Assembly: GCA_903642325.1 (NCBI GenBank)
Contig: CAHJWM010000004.1
Location: 62,001 to 126,000, forward strand
Length of the DNA: 64,000 nt
Direction: 5' to 3'
Source: Myxococcales bacterium
Lineage (GTDB): Bacteria; Myxococcota_A; Polyangia; Polyangiales; Polyangiaceae
Shown here one piece after another: positions 25,921-35,425 of the stretch. The stretch's first letter is position 1; each line of letters starts with the position of its first letter. The notes under the pieces were generated by a model that was not told the DNA's origin, did not search any database, and saw nothing but the letters and a program-made list of their open reading frames with translations. A program made the translations under genes and the position numbers.

Positions 25921-26961
25921 CTATCGTGGCGCGCCGCTCACCACGCCCCAGGGCAGCCCACTGATCTCGACTCGCGTCTCGACTTCACCGCGGGCGACGT
26001 CGATGATCGACAGGTCGTTCGACGAACCGTTGGCGGTGAAGAGCCGTTTGCCTTCGCCGTCCATCGCGATACCCCATGGCCGAGCCCCGACTTTCTCGAT
26101 CATGTGGTCGAAGCGACGATTGACGACGTCTATCACCGCGATCGCCCCGCCGCGGCCGGTGGTAACGAACAAATGTTTGTCGTCCGCCGACAGTACGAGG
26201 CCCATCGGGCGTTCGCTCGTCGACCCCTTGGACTCGATTTTGATCGTGCCGGTAGGCTGATTGCGGCGCGGATCGAACACGGTCAAGGTGCCGCCGAGCT
26301 CGTTACTCACGAACGCCGTGCTGCCATCCTTCGTGAAGGCGATGCCGCGCGGCCGAGCTCCGCAGACAATGGTGCCTAAGACGGCCCAGGTCGCCGTGTC
26401 GACGGCCGTCACGAGGCCGCCTCGCTCGGAGGTGACGTACACGACTTTGCCGTCCGGACGCAGGGTGACACCCTCCGGTTCCTCGCCAACTGGCACCCGC
26501 TTTACGATTTTGGCGCTCTCGAGATCGAGCACGCTGAGCTCCGCTGTTTCTTCGTTCGACACGTAGAGCCATTTGCCGTCTCGCGACAGGTCGAAAGCCT
26601 CAGGGTCTTGCCCGCTCGGAAGCGTACGCAGCAGCGTGCGTTCCACGAGATCGACCACGCCGATGCCATCCGCGGAGCGGTCCCCTGGCGGCAACGTTGA
26701 TTCGTCGACGTTTGGACCGCCGCGCGGGGAGCCCGACAACGCCACGTATAAAAAGCGCCCATCGCGCGACACTTTCAGGCCGCGCGGTCGTTTGCCCACC
26801 GCGATCCGTGCTTGCACCGCCGCCGTGTCGGGGTCGACCACGACGATCTCGCCGCTGCTCTCCGCGCTCAGATACAGGAGCTTGGGGTCCGGCTTGCGAC
26901 GGCAGCTCGCGAGCGCCAGCCCAAACAGAGCACATGTAAAGAGCACGCGTCGTGTCGCCAT
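25921..26961 (-). CDS. YVTN beta-propeller lipoprotein (TIGR03866-like, PQQ-associated)
   Basis: Periplasmic lipoprotein of 346 residues; signal peptide with lipobox LALASC. Seven YVTN-type repeats follow, with lines such as VGKRPRGLKVSRDGRFLYVA, SGQDPEAFDLSRDGKWLYVS, VGEEPEGVTLRPDGKVVYVT and the last SGLPWGVV. This order (RPRG, DPE, EPEG, ARPRG, PWG) closely follows TIGR03866, a propeller family found next to PQQ-dependent catabolism genes. The pqq operon lies 6 kb away, which supports that call. Exact function in PQQ systems is unknown; it may scaffold or assist a periplasmic quinoprotein. Confidence 0.85.
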   Translation of the reverse strand: MATRRVLFTCALFGLALASCRRKPDPKLLYLSAESSGEIVVVDPDTAAVQARIAVGKRPRGLKVSRDGRFLYVALSGSPRGGPNVDESTLPPGDRSADGIGVVDLVERTLLRTLPSGQDPEAFDLSRDGKWLYVSNEETAELSVLDLESAKIVKRVPVGEEPEGVTLRPDGKVVYVTSERGGLVTAVDTATWAVLGTIVCGARPRGIAFTKDGSTAFVSNELGGTLTVFDPRRNQPTGTIKIESKGSTSERPMGLVLSADDKHLFVTTGRGGAIAVIDVVNRRFDHMIEKVGARPWGIAMDGEGKRLFTANGSSNDLSIIDVARGEVETRVEISGLPWGVVSGAPR

Positions 26962-27329
26962 GCGGCTGTCTTAGGGCGCGCCAAAGACCAAGTCGATCGA
27001 TTTGATTGAAGAAGGCGTCGATTGCGCGGCGCGAATCAGATGACATGCCTGCGGGTGTCACGAGCTTAGTGCTTCTCGCGGCAGGGGAACACCAGCGCCT
27101 CGCACATCTTTACGCCGGCTCGCAGCGATGAGGGTGCCGTGACCACTGGTTGACCCCTGCGGGAGCGAGGAGCGCCTCGCGACCCATAGCCGGCCTCGCC
27201 AGGCGTTGGATGTCGCTCCGTTCCGCGCCGCCGAAGGCTTTGAAGAACCGCGAGGCGCGCGTGACCATAAAAACAAGTAGGCGTGAGACCGGCTCGTCGT
27301 CGAGCGCACTAAAGTCGCGCCGATTTCCA
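26962..27329. other. Intergenic region, no gene supported
   Basis: About 368 bases between the propeller gene and the LuxR-type regulator, both leftward. It should contain the propeller promoter. A 52-codon frame on the minus strand (27268-27110, starting MVTRASRFF) has no ribosome binding site and no recognised similarity and is not called. No strong hairpin was seen. Confidence 0.4.
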
Positions 27330-27950
27330 TCAACGCAAGTAAGCCAAACGGAAAAATTGCGCGCGGCTGGCGACTCCGCACTTCAGATAGATTTGGGTCA
27401 CGTGCTGACGAATTGTTTTCGGACTATTTTGCTCCAACGCGGCTATTTCGCTGCTGGACAAGCCGTCGAGCAATAGCCGCGCGACCGTCCGCTCCTTTTC
27501 GGTCAGTTGCGCGCGGGTGAAAATTTCATCGACCGCGTGATCGAGGGGGCGACCGCTCAGCAGCACGCGCTCGATGGCTTGTAACAGTTGCGGCGCGCGA
27601 AAGGGCTTCTCCAAGAAATGCGCCGCGCCCTCGTTCAGCGCAAATTTCAGCTTTTCGACGTCGGCGTAGGCGGTAATGATTACGACTTTGGCGGTCACGC
27701 CGTGCGCGCGTAGCGCCTTCATCAGCTCGAGCCCGGCCCGGCTTTCTGAGCCGAGCACGACGTCGGTAACCACGAGGTCGATCGCTTCGCTGGCACGAGC
27801 CGCGCTCAGCGCCTCGGCGGCGCTACTGGCGAGAACGCACTCGTAGCCCGCGCGCCGGATCGCGCGACCGAGCAGCTCACGTGTGTCGAGCTCGTCCTCC
27901 ACCAGTAAGATGGTGTGCTTTTTGGCTTCTGCCGAGGCGGCGCGGGTCAT
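27330..27950 (-). CDS. LuxR/NarL-type response regulator
   Basis: Two-domain regulator of 206 residues. Receiver: TILLVEDELDTRELL, phospho-acceptor Asp63 in LVVTDVVLGS, Thr in IITAYADV and Lys in FLEKPFRA. C-terminal LuxR HTH about residues 147-206 (LTEKERTVARLLLDGLSSSEIAALEQNSPKTIRQHVTQ region). Its start overlaps the kinase stop by 4 bases, so it is the cognate partner. Similar LuxR-type regulators (AgmR/ExaE/ErbR types) control PQQ-dependent alcohol oxidation in pseudomonads; that this pair controls the adjacent PQQ region is inference from position. Confidence 0.92.
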   Translation of the reverse strand: MTRAASAEAKKHTILLVEDELDTRELLGRAIRRAGYECVLASSAAEALSAARASEAIDLVVTDVVLGSESRAGLELMKALRAHGVTAKVVIITAYADVEKLKFALNEGAAHFLEKPFRAPQLLQAIERVLLSGRPLDHAVDEIFTRAQLTEKERTVARLLLDGLSSSEIAALEQNSPKTIRQHVTQIYLKCGVASRAQFFRLAYLR

Positions 27951-28918
27951 GCGCGGCCCGCCAATGGCAGCTCTAAGCAGAACGCCTTCTGCGCCTTGGC
28001 GTCCACTGAAAGCTCGCCGCGCATTGCCCGCGCGAGAGCACGCGCGATGGGCAAGCCCAGGCCGAGCCCGTGGGTCTTGGTCGTGCGTAGCGGGTCGAAC
28101 AACGTGGCGCGCACGCTCTCCTCCAAAGGGGGGCCGTCATCCGCCACGCGGACGCAGGCTCGCCCCGCCTCCGTGGTCAATGTCATGGTGACGGTGCCGC
28201 CCGGCTGGGCCCGTAGCGAATGTAGGCTGTTGTCCAACAGGTTCTCCAGTATGGCGCGCACATAGCTCGGGTCAGCGTTGACTCGTACCGGAAGCTCCGC
28301 TGGCCATTCGGCGTGGACCACTACGCCGTCCGTCTTGGCGAGCCCGCGCGCGTCGTCGGTAATGGCGAGAAGCAAGCGGTCGAGACCGAAGATTTGCAGC
28401 TCCGGCTCGCCGTTGCCTTGCATCGAACGCAGGGTATCCAGGTGAGCGAGCGCGCGGCGCACTTGGGCGTGCGCTCGATCCACGAGCTCGCTCCTTTGCG
28501 CGGCGTCCTCTGCGCAATCTTGATATTCGTCGAGCAACAGTCCAAGCGCATGCAAGGGGTTATTGAGCTCATGCAGCACCGCCGCGGCTAGGACCCAGAC
28601 GGCTTGGTCCCGCTCGACCTTCAACAATCGCACTCGCAGTGCCTCGGCACGCCCGGCCGCTTCTTCGGCTGCGGCCAAGCGAGCACGGAGTCGCAAATGG
28701 TAAACCGACAATCCGATCAGCGATCCGGCGAGCACGGGGATCAAGTGATCGACCAAGTAGTGCGCGTCGGCCAATGGGCCGGTGAGCGTGCCGGCTCGCA
28801 GCCGGGCCTCCGACACGATGTCGAACGCAACGTACGCGGCTCCCGCAAGCAACCCGAGGAGCACGTAGCTAAGGGCGGACCCGACCGCTCGCGGAGCCAG
28901 CGCTGCCCTCGAGATCAC
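27947..28918 (-). CDS. Membrane sensor histidine kinase
   Basis: Kinase of 323 residues. Two N-terminal transmembrane helices (about 12-33 and 58-74) with a short periplasmic loop are followed by a coiled-coil-like linker and the phosphotransfer region, His116 in LAAAVLHELNNPLHALG. ATPase domain: ENLLDNSLHSL (N box), VADDGPPLEE (G1), DPLRTTKTHGLGLGLPIARAL (F/G2). The loop is too short for a large sensor domain, so it may sense membrane state or a partner protein. It is coupled to the LuxR regulator and divergent from the cupredoxin-like gene with 81 bases between. Confidence 0.9.
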   Translation of the reverse strand: MISRAALAPRAVGSALSYVLLGLLAGAAYVAFDIVSEARLRAGTLTGPLADAHYLVDHLIPVLAGSLIGLSVYHLRLRARLAAAEEAAGRAEALRVRLLKVERDQAVWVLAAAVLHELNNPLHALGLLLDEYQDCAEDAAQRSELVDRAHAQVRRALAHLDTLRSMQGNGEPELQIFGLDRLLLAITDDARGLAKTDGVVVHAEWPAELPVRVNADPSYVRAILENLLDNSLHSLRAQPGGTVTMTLTTEAGRACVRVADDGPPLEESVRATLFDPLRTTKTHGLGLGLPIARALARAMRGELSVDAKAQKAFCLELPLAGRA

Positions 28919-28999
28919 GGCGGTACCGCCAAGTTGCCCCAGCCGCCTCCGATAGTTGTCCGATACTCAGGCCCCGCGCGTTGCCTGTACTCTTCGCTC

Positions 29000-29476
29000 G
29001 TGAACGAGCTTTTCAAAGTGCTGTTTCTGACCTCGGCCATTGCGCTCACCGCTGGCTGCAGCAACAGCGACAATGGTGATAAAGACGACCGCTGCCAGCC
29101 GGACGACCAAGATGGAATCGTGGGTGGAACCAACACGGTGCTCCTCAATGTGAGCGATACCGCATTTGCGGTCGGCGGGGTGAAGAGCGGCTCGACGCAG
29201 CCCAACATTACCGTGGAAAATTCGAGCACGGTGAAGCTCACCGTCACGAACGTCGGTAAAAAAGCCCATAGCTTCAAGGTTGCCTGCATTCCTTCTGGTC
29301 TTCCCGCAGGCTGCGAACAAACCTCGTGTTTTCCCAACGAGGCGAATATCGCGGCCATTGCGCCCGGGGACAGCGTGTCGGTGACTTTTCTGACGCCGGC
29401 GGTCGAAGGCAATTACCAATTCACCTCAAATGAGCCAGGCGATAGCGTTATCGTTGGCGAATTCGTCCTGAATTGA
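29000..29476 (+). CDS. Cupredoxin-like lipoprotein with incomplete copper site
   Basis: Protein of 158 residues. The GTG at 29000 is chosen because VNELFKVLFLTSAIALTAGC is a signal peptide with lipobox. The mature part has a cupredoxin Greek-key look: VLLNVSDTAFAVGG, VENSSTVKLTVTNVGKKAHSFKV, IAPGDSVSVTFLTPAVEGNYQF and SVIVGEFVLN. The N-terminal copper His is present (KKAHSF), but the C-terminal Cys-x-His-x-Met cluster is missing: the usual PGH position reads PGD and no Cys precedes it. Four Cys between the strands may form disulfides. It is coupled by a 4-base overlap to the TonB-dependent receptor, suggesting a ligand-binding partner rather than an electron carrier. Confidence 0.75.
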   Translation: MNELFKVLFLTSAIALTAGCSNSDNGDKDDRCQPDDQDGIVGGTNTVLLNVSDTAFAVGGVKSGSTQPNITVENSSTVKLTVTNVGKKAHSFKVACIPSGLPAGCEQTSCFPNEANIAAIAPGDSVSVTFLTPAVEGNYQFTSNEPGDSVIVGEFVLN

Positions 29477-32037
29477 AACGTCGATCTCCCGCGCTCTCAG
29501 CTTGGCTCATCGCGTCGTCGGTGCTGCTTGGCGCGCGCTTTGCGCACGCCGAGCTGACCGTTGCCGAGCCGGAACGGCCTATTGTGCCCCCGCTGCCCTC
29601 GGCGGTACCGGCGATAGAGGTGCAGGTGGTGCTGTCCTTGGTCATCGACGAGTCAGGCCAAGTCGAGTCGGCCATCGTCGTCTCACATCTGCCGTCGGAC
29701 GCGCCGGCAGCGTTCGACGACAGCGCTCTCTTGGCCGCGCGCAGTGCCACCTTCCGCCCTTCCGCGCGCGACGGGCATGCCTTTCGATCACGCATCGAGT
29801 ACGTGATCGTTTTTCGTCCACCTGAAACCACGCAGGCCGCTGTTCCCGCGCCCCCGCAAGAGAGCCCGCCGCCCGCGTCGAGCGCGCCCCCGCCGATCAC
29901 GTCGAGCCCGCCGACCGCGTCGCTCATGTCCGATGATCAAGACGAAGACTACGCTTTGACCATCGAAGTGCGCGGCAAGAACTGGCCGTCCCCACGCGGC
30001 GTGGGCGACATTCGCATCAGGCGCGAATTATTGGACGCTTCTCCCCACCAACAGACCAGTGAGATGCTCTCGGCCGCCCCCGGCTTCTTCGTCGACCACG
30101 AGGACGGCGAAGGCCTGGGCAATGACGTATATCTGCGCGGGTTCGACCTGGAACATGGTTCCGGTATCGAAATGCGCGTTGGAAACGTGCCCATCAATAG
30201 TCCGGTGCACGTGCAAGGCCAGGGCTATGCCGACGCAAACTTCATCATCCCCGAAGTCGTGCGCAGCATTCGAGTGCTCGAAGGTCCGTACGACCCACGC
30301 CAAGGCGACACGGCGATCGTGGGCAGCGCGTACTTCGACTTAGGCGTCACGGAGCGGACGAACGAGCTCAAGGCAAGTTACGGCGCCTTTAATCAGGCGC
30401 GCTTGGTCGGTGTTGCCGCACCCAAGGGTTTGGACGACCAGACCTTTGCCGCGTTCGCACTGCGCAAAACCGACGGCTTCGGCTCGCAACGCGCGTCTCA
30501 ATCCGGCACACTGAACGCGCAATACGGCCTGGATTTGGGTGCCGACAGTCACTTACGCTTACTGGCGACGGCCTACGGCGCCCGCGCCAAATTGCCAGGC
30601 GTTCTGCGGGAGGCCGACGTGGACGCCGGTCGAATCGGTTTTTACGACCGCTATCCGTACTTCACGGACAGTCAGGGCGTGCAGACTTCACGCGTGATCG
30701 TGAGCGCGGACTTCGACACCGTGACCCCTGGCGGCGCTCACTTCGAGCTCGCGCCATGGGCGATGTGGACCAACTTTCTGGCGCGCGAGAACTTTACCGG
30801 CAACATCCTGAGCTCCGCCCTCGACCCGGAGCTGGCCGGCGGCGCCGGAGACGTGTGGGAGACGACTGACCGCGAAACCGCCGCGGGCGTGGTGTCACGA
30901 CTGCACGCCAGCCCGCGTCACTTGACGAGCTTTTTGGAAGCGAGTGTCGAGCCTGGGGTCAGCGTGCGCGTCGGGCATACCGATCAGACCAAGAGCTTGG
31001 TCACGCCAGGTAGCCTAGTGGTCTGGGATCGCCGGCTGGACGCAGGCCTCGATACTCTCGACGCCGCCGCGTATTTGGATTTGAGCCTACGCTTTTGGCA
31101 GCACGCACGCGTCTCGGGCGGCCTGCGTGCGGATCTGCTCGGCGTCTCGATCAACGACCGATTGGGTTACGACGTTCCACCCGCGCAAGCCGCAGCGGGC
31201 GCGCTGCCCGGCGCCAACCGCACGGCACAGGGTATAGCCGTGAGCCCACGCGTCACCGCCGAGTACGATTTCCTGCCCGTGCTCACCGCCGTCGCCTCTT
31301 ATGGAGAAGGCTTCCGCTCCCTGGAGGCTACCGCAAATGTGGCGACCTCGGCCGGGATCTCGGGTGCCGGGCCCAGCATTCAGGAGGGCGCCAAGCCGTA
31401 CTCCAAAGTTCGCTCGTACGAGCTCGGCTTCCGCGCGCGCACGCGCCGAGAACGCTACACGGCGACTTGTTCGGTGTTTGAAACGCGGGTCGCCAATGAG
31501 CTCGTTTTCGAAGCGACGTCGGGTGGGTTCTCGACCGAGGGCGCCAGCGTTCGCCGAGGCCTCGTTGGATCCGCGGTCGCAAAGCCCTTTCCCTGGGTCC
31601 TGGCGTCGCTAGCGGGCTCGGTCTCGACCGCGACGTTCACCACGCTCGCCCCCGGAATATCGCATTATGTGCCGAATATTCCGCCTTTGCTCGTGCGCGC
31701 GGACATCGGCCTTCACGGCTCGCTCGCCACCGTACGTGGCAGACCACTCGGGGGACGGATTGGGGTGGGCTATACGTTCTTGGCCGGTCGTCATCTCACG
31801 GACCGTCTCGTTGGGCCCGTAGATCACGTGCTCAACGGCCATGCAGCGCTGCGCTACGAGCAGCTGGAGGTCGGCGTCGAGGGTTACAACTTGCTGGCAC
31901 GGCAGTACGCGGACGACCGCGAGGCCTACGTGTCGAACTGGAGCCTCCGTCCCGGAACGACGTTAGCGTCGCCGGCGACCCATGTGAGCGCCGCCCCGCC
32001 GCTCACCGTGCTCGCTACGCTAGCGCTCTTTTTCTGA
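29473..32037 (+). CDS. TonB-dependent outer-membrane receptor with N-terminal TonB_C-like domain
   Basis: Receptor of 854 residues, TTG start overlapping the upstream stop (TTGA). Signal peptide ends FAHAEL. Residues about 40-120 (VVLSLVIDESGQVESAIVVS, FDDSALLAARSATFRPSARDG) look like a TonB C-terminal energy-transfer domain, then a Pro-rich linker. The plug is about 155-285 (ELLDASPHQQTSEMLSAAPG, DVYLRGFDLEHGSGIEMRVG, VRSIRVLEGPYDPRQGD), and the rest is a 22-strand-type barrel ending LATLALFF. Ligand unknown; the position directly before pqqA suggests PQQ, or a metal needed by quinoproteins, as the cargo. Confidence 0.9.
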   Translation: MKRRSPALSAWLIASSVLLGARFAHAELTVAEPERPIVPPLPSAVPAIEVQVVLSLVIDESGQVESAIVVSHLPSDAPAAFDDSALLAARSATFRPSARDGHAFRSRIEYVIVFRPPETTQAAVPAPPQESPPPASSAPPPITSSPPTASLMSDDQDEDYALTIEVRGKNWPSPRGVGDIRIRRELLDASPHQQTSEMLSAAPGFFVDHEDGEGLGNDVYLRGFDLEHGSGIEMRVGNVPINSPVHVQGQGYADANFIIPEVVRSIRVLEGPYDPRQGDTAIVGSAYFDLGVTERTNELKASYGAFNQARLVGVAAPKGLDDQTFAAFALRKTDGFGSQRASQSGTLNAQYGLDLGADSHLRLLATAYGARAKLPGVLREADVDAGRIGFYDRYPYFTDSQGVQTSRVIVSADFDTVTPGGAHFELAPWAMWTNFLARENFTGNILSSALDPELAGGAGDVWETTDRETAAGVVSRLHASPRHLTSFLEASVEPGVSVRVGHTDQTKSLVTPGSLVVWDRRLDAGLDTLDAAAYLDLSLRFWQHARVSGGLRADLLGVSINDRLGYDVPPAQAAAGALPGANRTAQGIAVSPRVTAEYDFLPVLTAVASYGEGFRSLEATANVATSAGISGAGPSIQEGAKPYSKVRSYELGFRARTRRERYTATCSVFETRVANELVFEATSGGFSTEGASVRRGLVGSAVAKPFPWVLASLAGSVSTATFTTLAPGISHYVPNIPPLLVRADIGLHGSLATVRGRPLGGRIGVGYTFLAGRHLTDRLVGPVDHVLNGHAALRYEQLEVGVEGYNLLARQYADDREAYVSNWSLRPGTTLASPATHVSAAPPLTVLATLALFF

Positions 32038-32125
32038 CGCTGACGGCCGGCGTATCTTAGGGCCGGGGGCGCTCAAATGCCGCGCCTGTGGCAGTTTTGA
32101 TAATAGTTTCGAAAAGTTATACGCC

Positions 32126-32155
32126 TTGACCGACACCGGCCCGCGAGCTAATTAT
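32126..32155 (+). promoter_or_regulatory. Candidate sigma-70 promoter of pqqA
   Basis: TTGACC (32126-32131, 5 of 6 to consensus) and AATTAT (32150-32155, 4 of 6) are 18 bases apart, about 38 bases before the pqqA start. The preceding 25 bases are unusually AT-rich for this genome, like an UP element. Sequence match only. Confidence 0.5.
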
Positions 32156-32193
32156 TGTAGAGGCCCCGTTTGGGTCGGAGCGAAAGGCTAATC

Positions 32194-32280
32194 ATGAATT
32201 GGGAAACACCCGCGTTCGAAGAGATCGACATGAGCGCAGAGATTGGCTCGTATCAGGGAGAGGACGACAACGGTCTGTGA
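32194..32280 (+). CDS. pqqA: PQQ precursor peptide PqqA
   Basis: Very short gene of 28 codons plus stop, with AAAGG 6-7 bases before the ATG. The peptide starts MNWETPAFEEI, like many PqqA peptides (W-x-x-P-x-F-x-E), and contains the diagnostic Glu16 and Tyr20 in the spacing E-x3-Y (AEIGSY). PqqE links these two side chains to form the PQQ skeleton. The C-terminal tail (GEDDNGL) is acidic. It directly precedes pqqB, pqqC, pqqD and pqqE. Identification rests on the E-x3-Y pattern, N-terminal motif and position; it is easily missed by gene callers. Confidence 0.92.
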   Translation: MNWETPAFEEIDMSAEIGSYQGEDDNGL

Positions 32281-32295
32281 AGATCGTTGGGTCCA

Positions 32296-32338
32296 GCCGG
32301 GGCCCGGCTTTAGCCTGAATCTAGGCTCGGGCCCCGGC
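32296..32338 (+). promoter_or_regulatory. Strong hairpin between pqqA and pqqB
   Basis: Perfect 11-bp inverted repeat GCCGGGGCCCG (32296-32306) / CGGGCCCCGGC (32328-32338), enclosing a second 5-bp stem AGCCT/AGGCT with a 6-base loop and a 5-base bulge. It starts 16 bases after the pqqA stop. There is no T-run after it, so partial termination, mRNA processing or 3'-end protection that raises pqqA mRNA relative to pqqB-E is more likely than full termination. Confidence 0.7.
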
Positions 32339-32422: not shown

Positions 32423-33343
32423 GTGTTGATTCGTGTTTTGGGATCGGCGGCGGGCGGCGGCTTCCCCCAGTGGAACTGTGGATGTCCAAATTGCCTGGGA
32501 GTGCGCCGCGGGACAATCCGCGCACGGCCGCGGACGCAGGAAAGTGTCGCGGTGAGCGCCGATGGCGATTCCTGGTTTTTGCTCAACGCATCTCCGGAAA
32601 TCCGTCAGCAGCTGGAGAGCTTTTCCAAGCTTCATCCACGGTCGCCGCGCGATACGCCTATTCAGGGCATCGTCCTCACCAACGGGGACCTCGACCACTC
32701 TTTGGGCCTGTTGTCACTGCGTGAGTCTCAGCCGCTTGCGCTGTACGCGACGGCGCGCGTACGCAGCGGCTTCACCGAAGGCAACGTGCTGTATCGCACG
32801 TTGCAACGCTTCGACGGCCAGGTGAGCTGGCATGAGCTATCGCTCGCTGGCGACGCGAAAACGCTCAACTTGTTGGGCGGCGCCCCGAGTGGCCTCACCC
32901 TGCGCGCATTTGCAATACCGGGGAAGGCCGCTCTGCACCTCGATCAGTCGCATCCAGAGGCAGGCGACAATATCGGAATTCTGATCGGCGACACGCGTAC
33001 CGGAAAATCTCTCGCTTACATGCCAGCAGCGGGCGCAAGCTCGGCGGAGGTCGTCACCGCAGCAGCTGAGGCAGATGCAGTCTTCTTCGACGGCACTTTC
33101 TGGTCCAGTGACGAGCTGATTGCACTGGGTGCCTCGAAGAGCCGCGCGGAGGACATGGCCCACTGGCCCATCGGGGGTACTCAAGGCAGCCTGCGTTTCC
33201 TCGCGCAGTGGAGCCAGGCCCGCCGCGTCTACATCCACATCAACAACAGTAACCCGATCCTGCAAGAGGACTCCGTGGAGCGCGCGGCCGTGCACGCCGC
33301 CGGGGTCGAAGTGGCGTTCGACGGCATGGAGCTCGAGCTGTGA
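32423..33343 (+). CDS. pqqB: PqqB, PQQ biosynthesis metallo-hydrolase-fold protein
   Basis: Protein of 306 residues, the usual PqqB length, when started at GTG 32423. AAGGAG at 32409-32414 with 8-base spacing supports this; the in-frame upstream extension adds non-homologous residues. PqqB has a metallo-beta-lactamase fold and hydroxylates the Glu-Tyr-derived intermediate. Seen: VLGSAAGGGFPQWNC start, zinc-binding WNCGCPNC, NASPEIRQQL, the site LTNGDLDHSLGLLSLRE (family usually TDAxxDH) and DGTFWSSDEL. Stop overlaps pqqC start by 4 bases (GTGA). Confidence 0.95.
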   Translation: MLIRVLGSAAGGGFPQWNCGCPNCLGVRRGTIRARPRTQESVAVSADGDSWFLLNASPEIRQQLESFSKLHPRSPRDTPIQGIVLTNGDLDHSLGLLSLRESQPLALYATARVRSGFTEGNVLYRTLQRFDGQVSWHELSLAGDAKTLNLLGGAPSGLTLRAFAIPGKAALHLDQSHPEAGDNIGILIGDTRTGKSLAYMPAAGASSAEVVTAAAEADAVFFDGTFWSSDELIALGASKSRAEDMAHWPIGGTQGSLRFLAQWSQARRVYIHINNSNPILQEDSVERAAVHAAGVEVAFDGMELEL

Positions 33344-34056
33344 GCGACCGGCCGCCACTTCCGCGCGACGAGTTCGTGAGCTGGCTACGCCGCGAAGGCG
33401 AGAGCCGCTATCACGATCAGCATCGCGTGCACGTCCTCATGCACCAAGGCAAGCTGAGCAAGCTTCAGCTTCAGCAGTGGGTGCTCAATCGCTTCTATTA
33501 TCAAACCCGAATTCCCATCAAAGACGCGTTGATCTTAGCCAAGTCCGAGGACCCGGTGTTTCGCCGAGCTTGGATCCGGCGCATTCATGACCATGATGGT
33601 AGTGCGCCGGGTGAGGGCGGCTTGGAGCTTTGGTTGCGCTTGGCCGAGGGCGTCGGTCTAAAGCGGGCCGAGGTCGAAGGCTTGGGCTCGGTGCTGCCAG
33701 GCGTGAAGTTCGCGTGCGACGCGTACGTCACCCTGGTGCGCGAGCGCAGCTTGCTCGAGGCCGTCGCCTCGTCGCTGACCGAGTTCTTCGCGCCCGATTT
33801 GATGAGTCGGCGAATACAGGCTTGGCAAGACCACTACCCGTGGGTGGACGCCGAGATGTTGGCGTACTTCCGAGCCCGCGTCCCGCGCGCTCGCGTCGAT
33901 TCCGAAGAAGCGATTGCCTTCGTCGTCGGCCACGCCGACACCTTCGAGCTGCAGCGGCGCTGCGTCGCGGCGCTGATTCGCAAGACCGAGATTCTCTGGC
34001 ATCTGCTGGACTGCGTGCAGGCCGCGTACGTGCCTTCCACGGAGGAGGCGCCGTGA
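33340..34056 (+). CDS. pqqC: PqqC, pyrroloquinoline-quinone synthase
   Basis: Cofactorless oxidase of 238 residues that performs the last ring closure and eight-electron oxidation to PQQ. Family features: HDQHRVHVLMHQGKL, QQWVLNRFYYQTRIPIKDA, RRIHDHDG, PGVKFACDAYV and SSLTEFFAPDLM, and the helical C-terminus with LQRRCVAALIRKTEILWHLLD. GTG start overlaps the pqqB stop by 4 bases and its stop overlaps pqqD in the same way, so the genes are translationally coupled. Confidence 0.96.
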   Translation: MSDRPPLPRDEFVSWLRREGESRYHDQHRVHVLMHQGKLSKLQLQQWVLNRFYYQTRIPIKDALILAKSEDPVFRRAWIRRIHDHDGSAPGEGGLELWLRLAEGVGLKRAEVEGLGSVLPGVKFACDAYVTLVRERSLLEAVASSLTEFFAPDLMSRRIQAWQDHYPWVDAEMLAYFRARVPRARVDSEEAIAFVVGHADTFELQRRCVAALIRKTEILWHLLDCVQAAYVPSTEEAP

Positions 34057-34340
34057 GCGCGGAGCTCAGCATGGATCTGAGGCTCAAGCTGGCTCAGAAG
34101 ACTAGGCTCCGGCTCGATCACAAGACGGGCAAATACGTTCTGCTCTTCCCCGAAAAAGGCTTGCTCTTGAATCCGACAGGAGCCGCCATTTTGAAACGAT
34201 GCACGGGGGAGCAGACGCTGTCGGCAATCATCACGGCGCTGTCGCTCGAGTTCGCAAGTGACGCCGAGAAGGTGCGCGCGGAGGTCGTGCCCTTCGTGCA
34301 GCGCCTGCTCGACCGAGGCTTGCTGCAGGTCGAACCGTGA
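34053..34340 (+). CDS. pqqD: PqqD, peptide chaperone (RRE domain)
   Basis: Protein of 95 residues with GTG start overlapping the pqqC stop (GTGA). PqqD is a RiPP recognition element that binds PqqA and presents it to PqqE. Seen: RLRLDHKTGKYVLLFPEKGLLLNPTG, where the family has KYVLLYPEGxxxLN, then AAILKRCTGEQTLSAII and a C-terminal helix LLDRGLLQVEP. Overlaps pqqE by 4 bases. Confidence 0.94.
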   Translation: MSAELSMDLRLKLAQKTRLRLDHKTGKYVLLFPEKGLLLNPTGAAILKRCTGEQTLSAIITALSLEFASDAEKVRAEVVPFVQRLLDRGLLQVEP

Positions 34341-35425
34341 CGGACGACAATCGGCTGTACACGCTGATCGCCGAGCTCACGTACCTGTGCCCACTGCGCT
34401 GCGTCTACTGTTCGAACCCCACGAACCTCGCGGCTCACCCGGACCGGCTTTCGACCGCGGACTGGCTGCGCGTTTTTCGCGAGGCTGCGGAGCTCGGCGC
34501 ACTGCAGCTGAACCTGAGTGGGGGAGAGCCGCTGTTGCGGAAAGATCTGGAGCAGCTCGTCGCGGGCGCCCACGCGCTCGACTTCTACAGTAACCTCATC
34601 ACGAGTGGCTTACCACTGACCCGAGACCGGTTGCAGCAGCTGCGCGACGCGGGCCTGAGCAGCGTTCAGGTATCGTTGCAGGACACGCTGCCCGCGGAGT
34701 CCGACCGCATCGCGGGGCGCGGCTCGTTCGAGCAAAAGCTCGAGGTCATGCGCTGGGTCAAGGAGCTCGGCCTGCCGCTGACACTCAACATCGTGCTGCA
34801 CCGTCAGAACTTGAGCCGCGTTGCCGACATGATTGCGCTCGCGGAGCGCCACGGGGTCGATCGCCTGGAGCTGGCGAACACGCAGTACTTGGCATGGGCA
34901 CTGCTCAACCGTAGTGCGCTCTTACCCAGCCAGGACCAGCTGGACCAAGCTCGGGAGGTGGCGCGCGCGGCGCGTCGACGCTTGCAGGGCAAGCTCGAGC
35001 TACTTTTCGTGCTTCCCGATTATTTCTCCGATCGCCCCAAAGCGTGCATGAGCGGCTGGGGCAAACGCTATCTTCTCGTCAGTCCGGACGGCATGGCGTT
35101 GCCTTGCCACCTGGCCCATACGCTAACTGGTCTGAGCTTCGAAAACGTTCAAGAGCACTCGTTGCAAGAAATTTGGCTTCATTCGCCCGGCTTTGCCGCA
35201 TTCCGCGGGGAAGCCTGGATGCCGGAGCCGTGTCGGAGCTGCGACCGCCGCGCGCTCGATTTCGGTGGCTGCCGCTGCCAAGCGTTCCACCTCACCGGCG
35301 ACGCGGCGGCAACCGATCCCGCCTGCGGGCTCGCGCCCCAGCACGGTTTGATCGGCGAGGCGCGGGCCGCCGCTGAAGCACAGCTCATTCCGCTAACGCT
35401 GAAGTATCGCGAGATGCGCCGCTGA
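34337..35425 (+). CDS. pqqE: PqqE, radical SAM PqqA peptide cyclase
   Basis: Radical SAM enzyme of 362 residues that makes the Glu-Tyr carbon-carbon crosslink in PqqA. Seen: SAM-cluster motif CPLRCVYC, LNLSGGEPLLRKDL (GGEP), the barrel core LTLNIVLHRQNL, and a C-terminal SPASM domain with the auxiliary-cluster cysteines (ACMSGWGKRYLLVSPDG, LPCHLAHT, CRSCD, GGCRCQAFHLTGD, DPACGL). The 4-base overlap with pqqD closes a five-gene coupled operon. No pqqF/G protease follows; cleavage would need an enzyme encoded elsewhere. Confidence 0.97.
   Translation: MTDDNRLYTLIAELTYLCPLRCVYCSNPTNLAAHPDRLSTADWLRVFREAAELGALQLNLSGGEPLLRKDLEQLVAGAHALDFYSNLITSGLPLTRDRLQQLRDAGLSSVQVSLQDTLPAESDRIAGRGSFEQKLEVMRWVKELGLPLTLNIVLHRQNLSRVADMIALAERHGVDRLELANTQYLAWALLNRSALLPSQDQLDQAREVARAARRRLQGKLELLFVLPDYFSDRPKACMSGWGKRYLLVSPDGMALPCHLAHTLTGLSFENVQEHSLQEIWLHSPGFAAFRGEAWMPEPCRSCDRRALDFGGCRCQAFHLTGDAAATDPACGLAPQHGLIGEARAAAEAQLIPLTLKYREMRR

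Follow-up and report, generated by a model that had tools for sequence, protein, structure and literature searches.

The 28-codon frame at 32194-32280 on the forward strand of the window (the whole 64,000-nucleotide stretch of DNA analysed here) is almost certainly pqqA, the gene for a ribosomally synthesised precursor of pyrroloquinoline quinone (PQQ) and an ordinary representative of an established family, and the acidic tail of its peptide is a marker for a branch of pqq operons rather than for the window's organism. PqqA is the short peptide that is cut apart in bacteria to make the redox cofactor PQQ, and PqqB acts as a late step in PQQ formation. We base the identity on family scores above cut-off for PqqA, PqqB, PqqC, PqqD and PqqE, taken together with gene order, codon pattern and the matching occurrence of PqqA and PqqE among genomes of the window's family. 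The encoded peptide, MNWETPAFEEIDMSAEIGSYQGEDDNGL, runs from an ATG at 32194 to a TGA ending at 32280 (28 codons plus stop), scores 22.7 bits with the Pfam PqqA model PF08042 (cut-off 21.1) and 23.9 bits with NCBIfam TIGR02107 (cut-off 20), and carries a W3-x-x-P6-x-F8 motif near its N-terminus and a Glu and a Tyr three residues apart (Glu16, Tyr20). Directly downstream lie pqqB, pqqC, pqqD and pqqE, giving the gene order pqqABCDE, with all four products above their equivalog cut-offs and neighbours from pqqB to pqqE overlapping by a few bases (Table 1). Comparison of 20 core pqqA codons with 17 relatives produced 67, 69 and 171 differences at codon positions 1, 2 and 3, and the close pair L031/L032 differs at 2, 2 and 13, a weighting towards position 3 that looks as in a translated frame. 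The preliminary description had read a 28-codon frame with Glu16, Tyr20, W-x-x-P-x-F and an acidic end from this sequence, all of which we find there; the ribosome binding site that it claimed corresponds to a weak Shine-Dalgarno-like AAAGG 6 nt before the ATG, and the PqqA identity that it proposed is borne out by both models, by pqqBCDE and by the codon-position pattern. A longer frame also opens at TTG 32170 (36 aa), but close relatives begin at the ATG.

A peptide search returned a single PqqA place in the window's genome, in agreement with a profile built from the 18 PqqA peptides of its clade, tails included (E 6e-16), and neither search found the second, better PqqA that the same description had named as the observation that would speak against this gene. 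Across 377 genomes of the phylum, a TIGR02107 search gave matches at E <=0.1 in 17 genomes, 6 of them over the cut-off, and matches in 0 of 14 control genomes. Within the open-licence literature searched we found nothing on myxobacterial PqqA, and the window gene is a clean added PqqA example in Myxococcota.

Table 1. Features of the pqq locus, in positions of the window.
Feature	Position	Strand	Evidence
TonB-dependent receptor with N-terminal TonB_C domain, adjoining the pqq operon	29473..32037	+	Profile matches; 53% identical neighbour of pqqA in L031
Sigma-70-like promoter match TTGACC-18-AATTAT, upstream of pqqA	32126..32155	+	Consensus match only
Shine-Dalgarno-like AAAGG (weak)	32183-32187	+	Sequence; 6 nt before ATG
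pqqA, 28-aa PQQ precursor peptide	32194..32280	+	PF08042 and TIGR02107 scores over cut-off
Glu16-Tyr20 codons, the E-x3-Y pair known as the PqqE cross-link	32239..32253	+	Sequence
C-terminal tail QGEDDNGL, acid at Tyr+3 = Glu23	32254..32277	+	Acid at Tyr+3 in 18/18 clade members
Strong G+C-rich hairpin without T run, between pqqA and pqqB (predicted)	32296..32338	+	-35.2 kcal/mol, z -3.65
pqqB	32423..33343	+	TIGR02108 383.9 bits, cut-off 245
pqqC	33340..34056	+	TIGR02111 297.7 bits, cut-off 240
pqqD	34053..34340	+	TIGR03859 61.5 bits, cut-off 46, scanned as 34047-34337; start set at GTG overlapping pqqC stop
pqqE, radical SAM/SPASM	34337..35425	+	TIGR02109 497.3 bits, cut-off 381.35

In the established pathway, PqqE links Glu16 and Tyr20 on PqqD-held PqqA, a protease then excises the pair, and PqqC helps to complete the cofactor (PMC10906245, PMC2294125, PMC12997753). 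By analogy, PqqD would hold the N-terminal part of the window PqqA, the radical SAM enzyme PqqE would join Glu16 to Tyr20, a protease would release the joined residues, and the ring system would be completed by PqqB and PqqC, with the residues past Tyr20 forming a follower segment that would be discarded.

PqqA was readable in 89 of the 98 rows examined, made up of the window and 97 loci (L070 having been dropped as a repeat of L031; none was read in L078, L090, L092, L093, L094, L102, L118, L131 or L140), a sample that is not random, its 80 named loci being the best matches to a PqqC alignment. The 89 peptides show three broad kinds of ending. Those of gamma- and betaproteobacteria have four-residue ends, usually with Arg (ISNR, FASR, IANR), just as had been claimed for the many proteobacterial PqqAs said to end soon past the Tyr; many from alphaproteobacteria and Acidobacteria have five to seven tail residues, often with Glu at Tyr+4 (ACAEL); and a third kind, longer and acidic, is shared by the window's group with Rhodobacterales (GPDSDDHGVLF), Rhizobiaceae (APADGDEPVLF) and Methylobacterium (ESAEIDTFN), so that acidic tails are not peculiar to the window's lineage. 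On a PqqC tree built from the 89 rows with a readable PqqA, the window falls inside a supported 18-row clade (support 100/98) that, besides Polyangia and other Myxococcota, holds two Rokubacteria, one Nitrospira, one Fibrobacteria and one MAG labelled Proteobacteria. An acid stands three residues past the Tyr in all 18 clade rows, the window included, versus 5 of the 71 others, all five of them Rhodobacterales, and the trait takes two changes on the tree. The rows nearest the window are the two Rokubacteria, followed by L031 and L032 of its own genus; L037, of its own family, groups with alphaproteobacterial types, and the Myxococcota rows L041 and L045 with gammaproteobacterial types. This scatter of Myxococcota rows suggests that the pqq operon has probably passed between phyla more than once.

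Within the clade, Asp and Glu account for 104 of 407 residues in the pooled tails (25.6%), compared with 12.2% in clade PqqB to PqqE and 14.2% in the last twelve residues of those proteins. The follower is acidic and opens with Y-[QNG]-x-[DE]; its first few residues are conserved while the remainder drifts in length and sequence, and tails range from 7 to 36 residues across the branch, the window's being among the shortest. Its nearest peptide (L157) ends QGDNEDSDYNGL where the window ends QGEDDNGL, so the tail is inherited, with a small length change. The suggestion that the acidic tail is specific to this lineage therefore stands in one part only, the trait being real and inherited but common also to Rokubacteria, Nitrospira and Fibrobacteria, with other acidic tails found elsewhere.

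The Tyr+3 acid recurs within the window's family, where the clade profile matches 32 of 108 genomes and PqqE is present in 34; 31 genomes hold both (overlap counted by hand), one holds the peptide only (G431) and three hold PqqE only (G292, G411, G443). Thirty loci were read out of 33 profile matches, and the acid at Tyr+3 is present in 30/30, a count that is not fully independent, as nine repeat sequences of the 18 and the tail-inclusive profile favours such tails. One genome, G435, carries a full operon and, elsewhere, an orphan second PqqA-like peptide whose tail is acidic (L201:6406-6480); it follows the gene for an FG-GAP repeat protein, and no pqqBCDE was found in the 13 kb read there. 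Clade PqqAs other than the window's are mostly missed by models, not by length. Among ten of them tested against the standard models, NCBIfam passes 2/10 and Pfam 1/10, leaving eight and nine, respectively, under the cut-offs. The preliminary description had held that the gene is missed by length filters; the window gene itself passes both models, and what survives of the claim applies to its relatives. A large acidic-tail PqqA branch thus lies under both standard cut-offs, so that PQQ producers there are under-called by peptide-based searches.

As to what the tail does, we lean towards a neutral, disordered follower whose acidity would reflect only solubility or shared ancestry. Its length varies widely in the branch and its distal part is unlike even between close pairs such as L033/L036; moreover, PqqAs with four-residue tails work, the K. 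pneumoniae peptide having 23 aa and that of M. extorquens 29 (PMC2294125). Against a neutral follower stands the invariance of the Tyr+3 acid in the clade sample (18/18, and 30/30 by the tail-inclusive profile). That invariance, kept while the distal tail drifts, speaks for a doubtful but possible alternative, in which the acidic follower would serve recognition, its Tyr+3 acid docking the peptide in PqqE or directing the protease in organisms without an operon-adjacent PqqF. The clade loci, read with 5-kb flanks that miss distant genes, yielded no M16 gene, whereas one is present in three enterobacterial loci whose tails are short and basic. The window's genome has M16 genes at 8 places, and among the proteins scanned from 3 of these no PqqF equivalog was found, all being far under the cut-off (best TIGR02110 score 60.9 versus 320). 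Six M16 genes form three pairs in which one partner has HxxEH and the other lacks it, a layout like that of the PqqF/PqqG heterodimer reported in M. extorquens (PMC12997753); the pairs are unlinked to pqq, however, and may serve other ends.

The charge of the partner proteins also argues against a recognition element. A test of charge complementarity between the tail and PqqD or PqqE gives no support to the role in PqqD/PqqE recognition or protease choice that the preliminary description put forward: with ancestry allowed for, the charge of neither protein follows the tail, and the only four independent pairs available show no trend or direction. Pooled rows do differ in the charge of both PqqD and PqqE, clade members having the more basic PqqD core (Mann-Whitney p 4e-5; computed on the aligned core, since whole-frame charges are unreliable where many frames have long N-terminal extensions), but for both proteins the pooled correlation is weak, and PqqC, which has no contact with the peptide, shifts similarly, as does PqqB. 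Outside the clade the PqqD charge trend is gone (p 0.30) and a weak PqqE trend is left (p 0.017). HDX on Methylorubrum assigns the N-terminal portion of PqqA to PqqD and its C-terminal region to PqqE (PMC10906245), so the tail, if bound early, would more likely lie on PqqE, and by this analogy a PqqD role for it is less likely. It is on balance unlikely that the Tyr+3 acid works as a signal for docking or cleavage that dates from an ancestor, marking a separate PqqA recognition class that spread between phyla with its own PqqD, PqqE and unlinked M16 pair. If the acid does prove to have a function, this branch would offer a natural set of peptides on which to study how PqqE and the protease read the peptide end.

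Profiles PF13360, PF01011 and TIGR03606 found no confident PQQ-using enzyme in the window's genome (G000): places hit by PF13360 either resemble BamB, are weak or have no match, the PF01011 places are weak only (L206:1048-2922 being a lipoprotein-like propeller with a weak match), and the sole sugar-dehydrogenase-like protein (L064:1270-2463) reaches 32.7 bits with TIGR03606 against a cut-off of 434.55. This result would suit a peptide that feeds a PqqE-type system making a non-PQQ product, which we nevertheless regard as highly improbable, as PqqB, PqqC, PqqD and PqqE all exceed their equivalog cut-offs and the PqqC motifs checked (RYHD, YYQ, RxxDHDG, YF-R, K215) agree with the family. Position 155 of PqqC, which is Met here and His in enterobacteria, was considered as a lost active-site residue and rejected; the position is variable, with Ile in 36, His in 29 and Met in 15 of 80 non-clade sequences. 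A chance open frame merely resembling PqqA, which a length of just 28 codons might favour, has a negligible probability in the face of the curated scores, the position, the codon-position pattern and the relatives.

Upstream of pqqA, the sigma-70-like match (1 found versus 0.2 expected) and two terminator-like sites that end the receptor gene (32013-32025 and 32078-32093) suggest that pqqA may have its own transcription start. The predicted hairpin downstream could be a partial stop or mRNA stabiliser. As a conserved attenuator it was rejected, being absent in L031, L032, most others and the closest relative L157, and it is kept only as a local feature. Many gaps between pqqA and pqqB measure 0-33 nt, and the whole gaps of both Rokubacteria, L068 and L069, also fold strongly (z about -3 versus simple shuffles). 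The genes just upstream, at 28604-32037, encode the TonB_C receptor and a secreted protein that resembles a lipoprotein and has weak CARDB and cupredoxin-like matches. In L031, too, the lipoprotein-like protein (37% identity) and the receptor (53%) stand just ahead of pqqA; both were not found in the 17 other sequences searched (present in 2/19, where some sequences end at contig edges). They may act with the pqq operon in import or export. The receptor does not qualify as PqqU, with 23.7 bits for NF041535 against a cut-off of 1200. Further upstream, 25921-28918 on the minus strand holds a two-component pair (histidine kinase with response regulator) and a beta-propeller protein, the latter near the PQQ-dependent catabolism-associated family TIGR03866 at 260.1 bits, below the cut-off of 287.3. 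In L034 and L035, from the window's genus, pqqB is inverted and lies divergent, upstream of pqqA-C-D-E.

Compared with known systems, the window peptide shares its numbering with the 29-aa PqqA of Methylorubrum extorquens, in which Glu16 and Tyr20 are the cross-linked residues (PMC10906245). PqqC and PqqD are fused in Methylorubrum according to the same paper, whereas they are separate in the window. Methylobacterium relatives have a nine-residue tail, ESAEIDTFN, that is acidic like the window's, although its first acids fall at Tyr+1 and Tyr+4 and those of the window's branch at Tyr+3. Gamma- and betaproteobacterial PqqAs (Serratia, Erwinia and Halopseudomonas loci) have the W-x-x-P core and E-x3-Y as in the window but, unlike it, end in four-residue basic tails such as ISNR, and pqqF adjoins the operon in three of them. 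The PqqAs of Polyangiaceae, Sorangium, Rokubacteria, Nitrospira sp. UBA5699 and a Fibrobacteria MAG belong to the window's PqqC clade and share the acid at Tyr+3, mostly with longer tails than the window's, of up to 36 residues.
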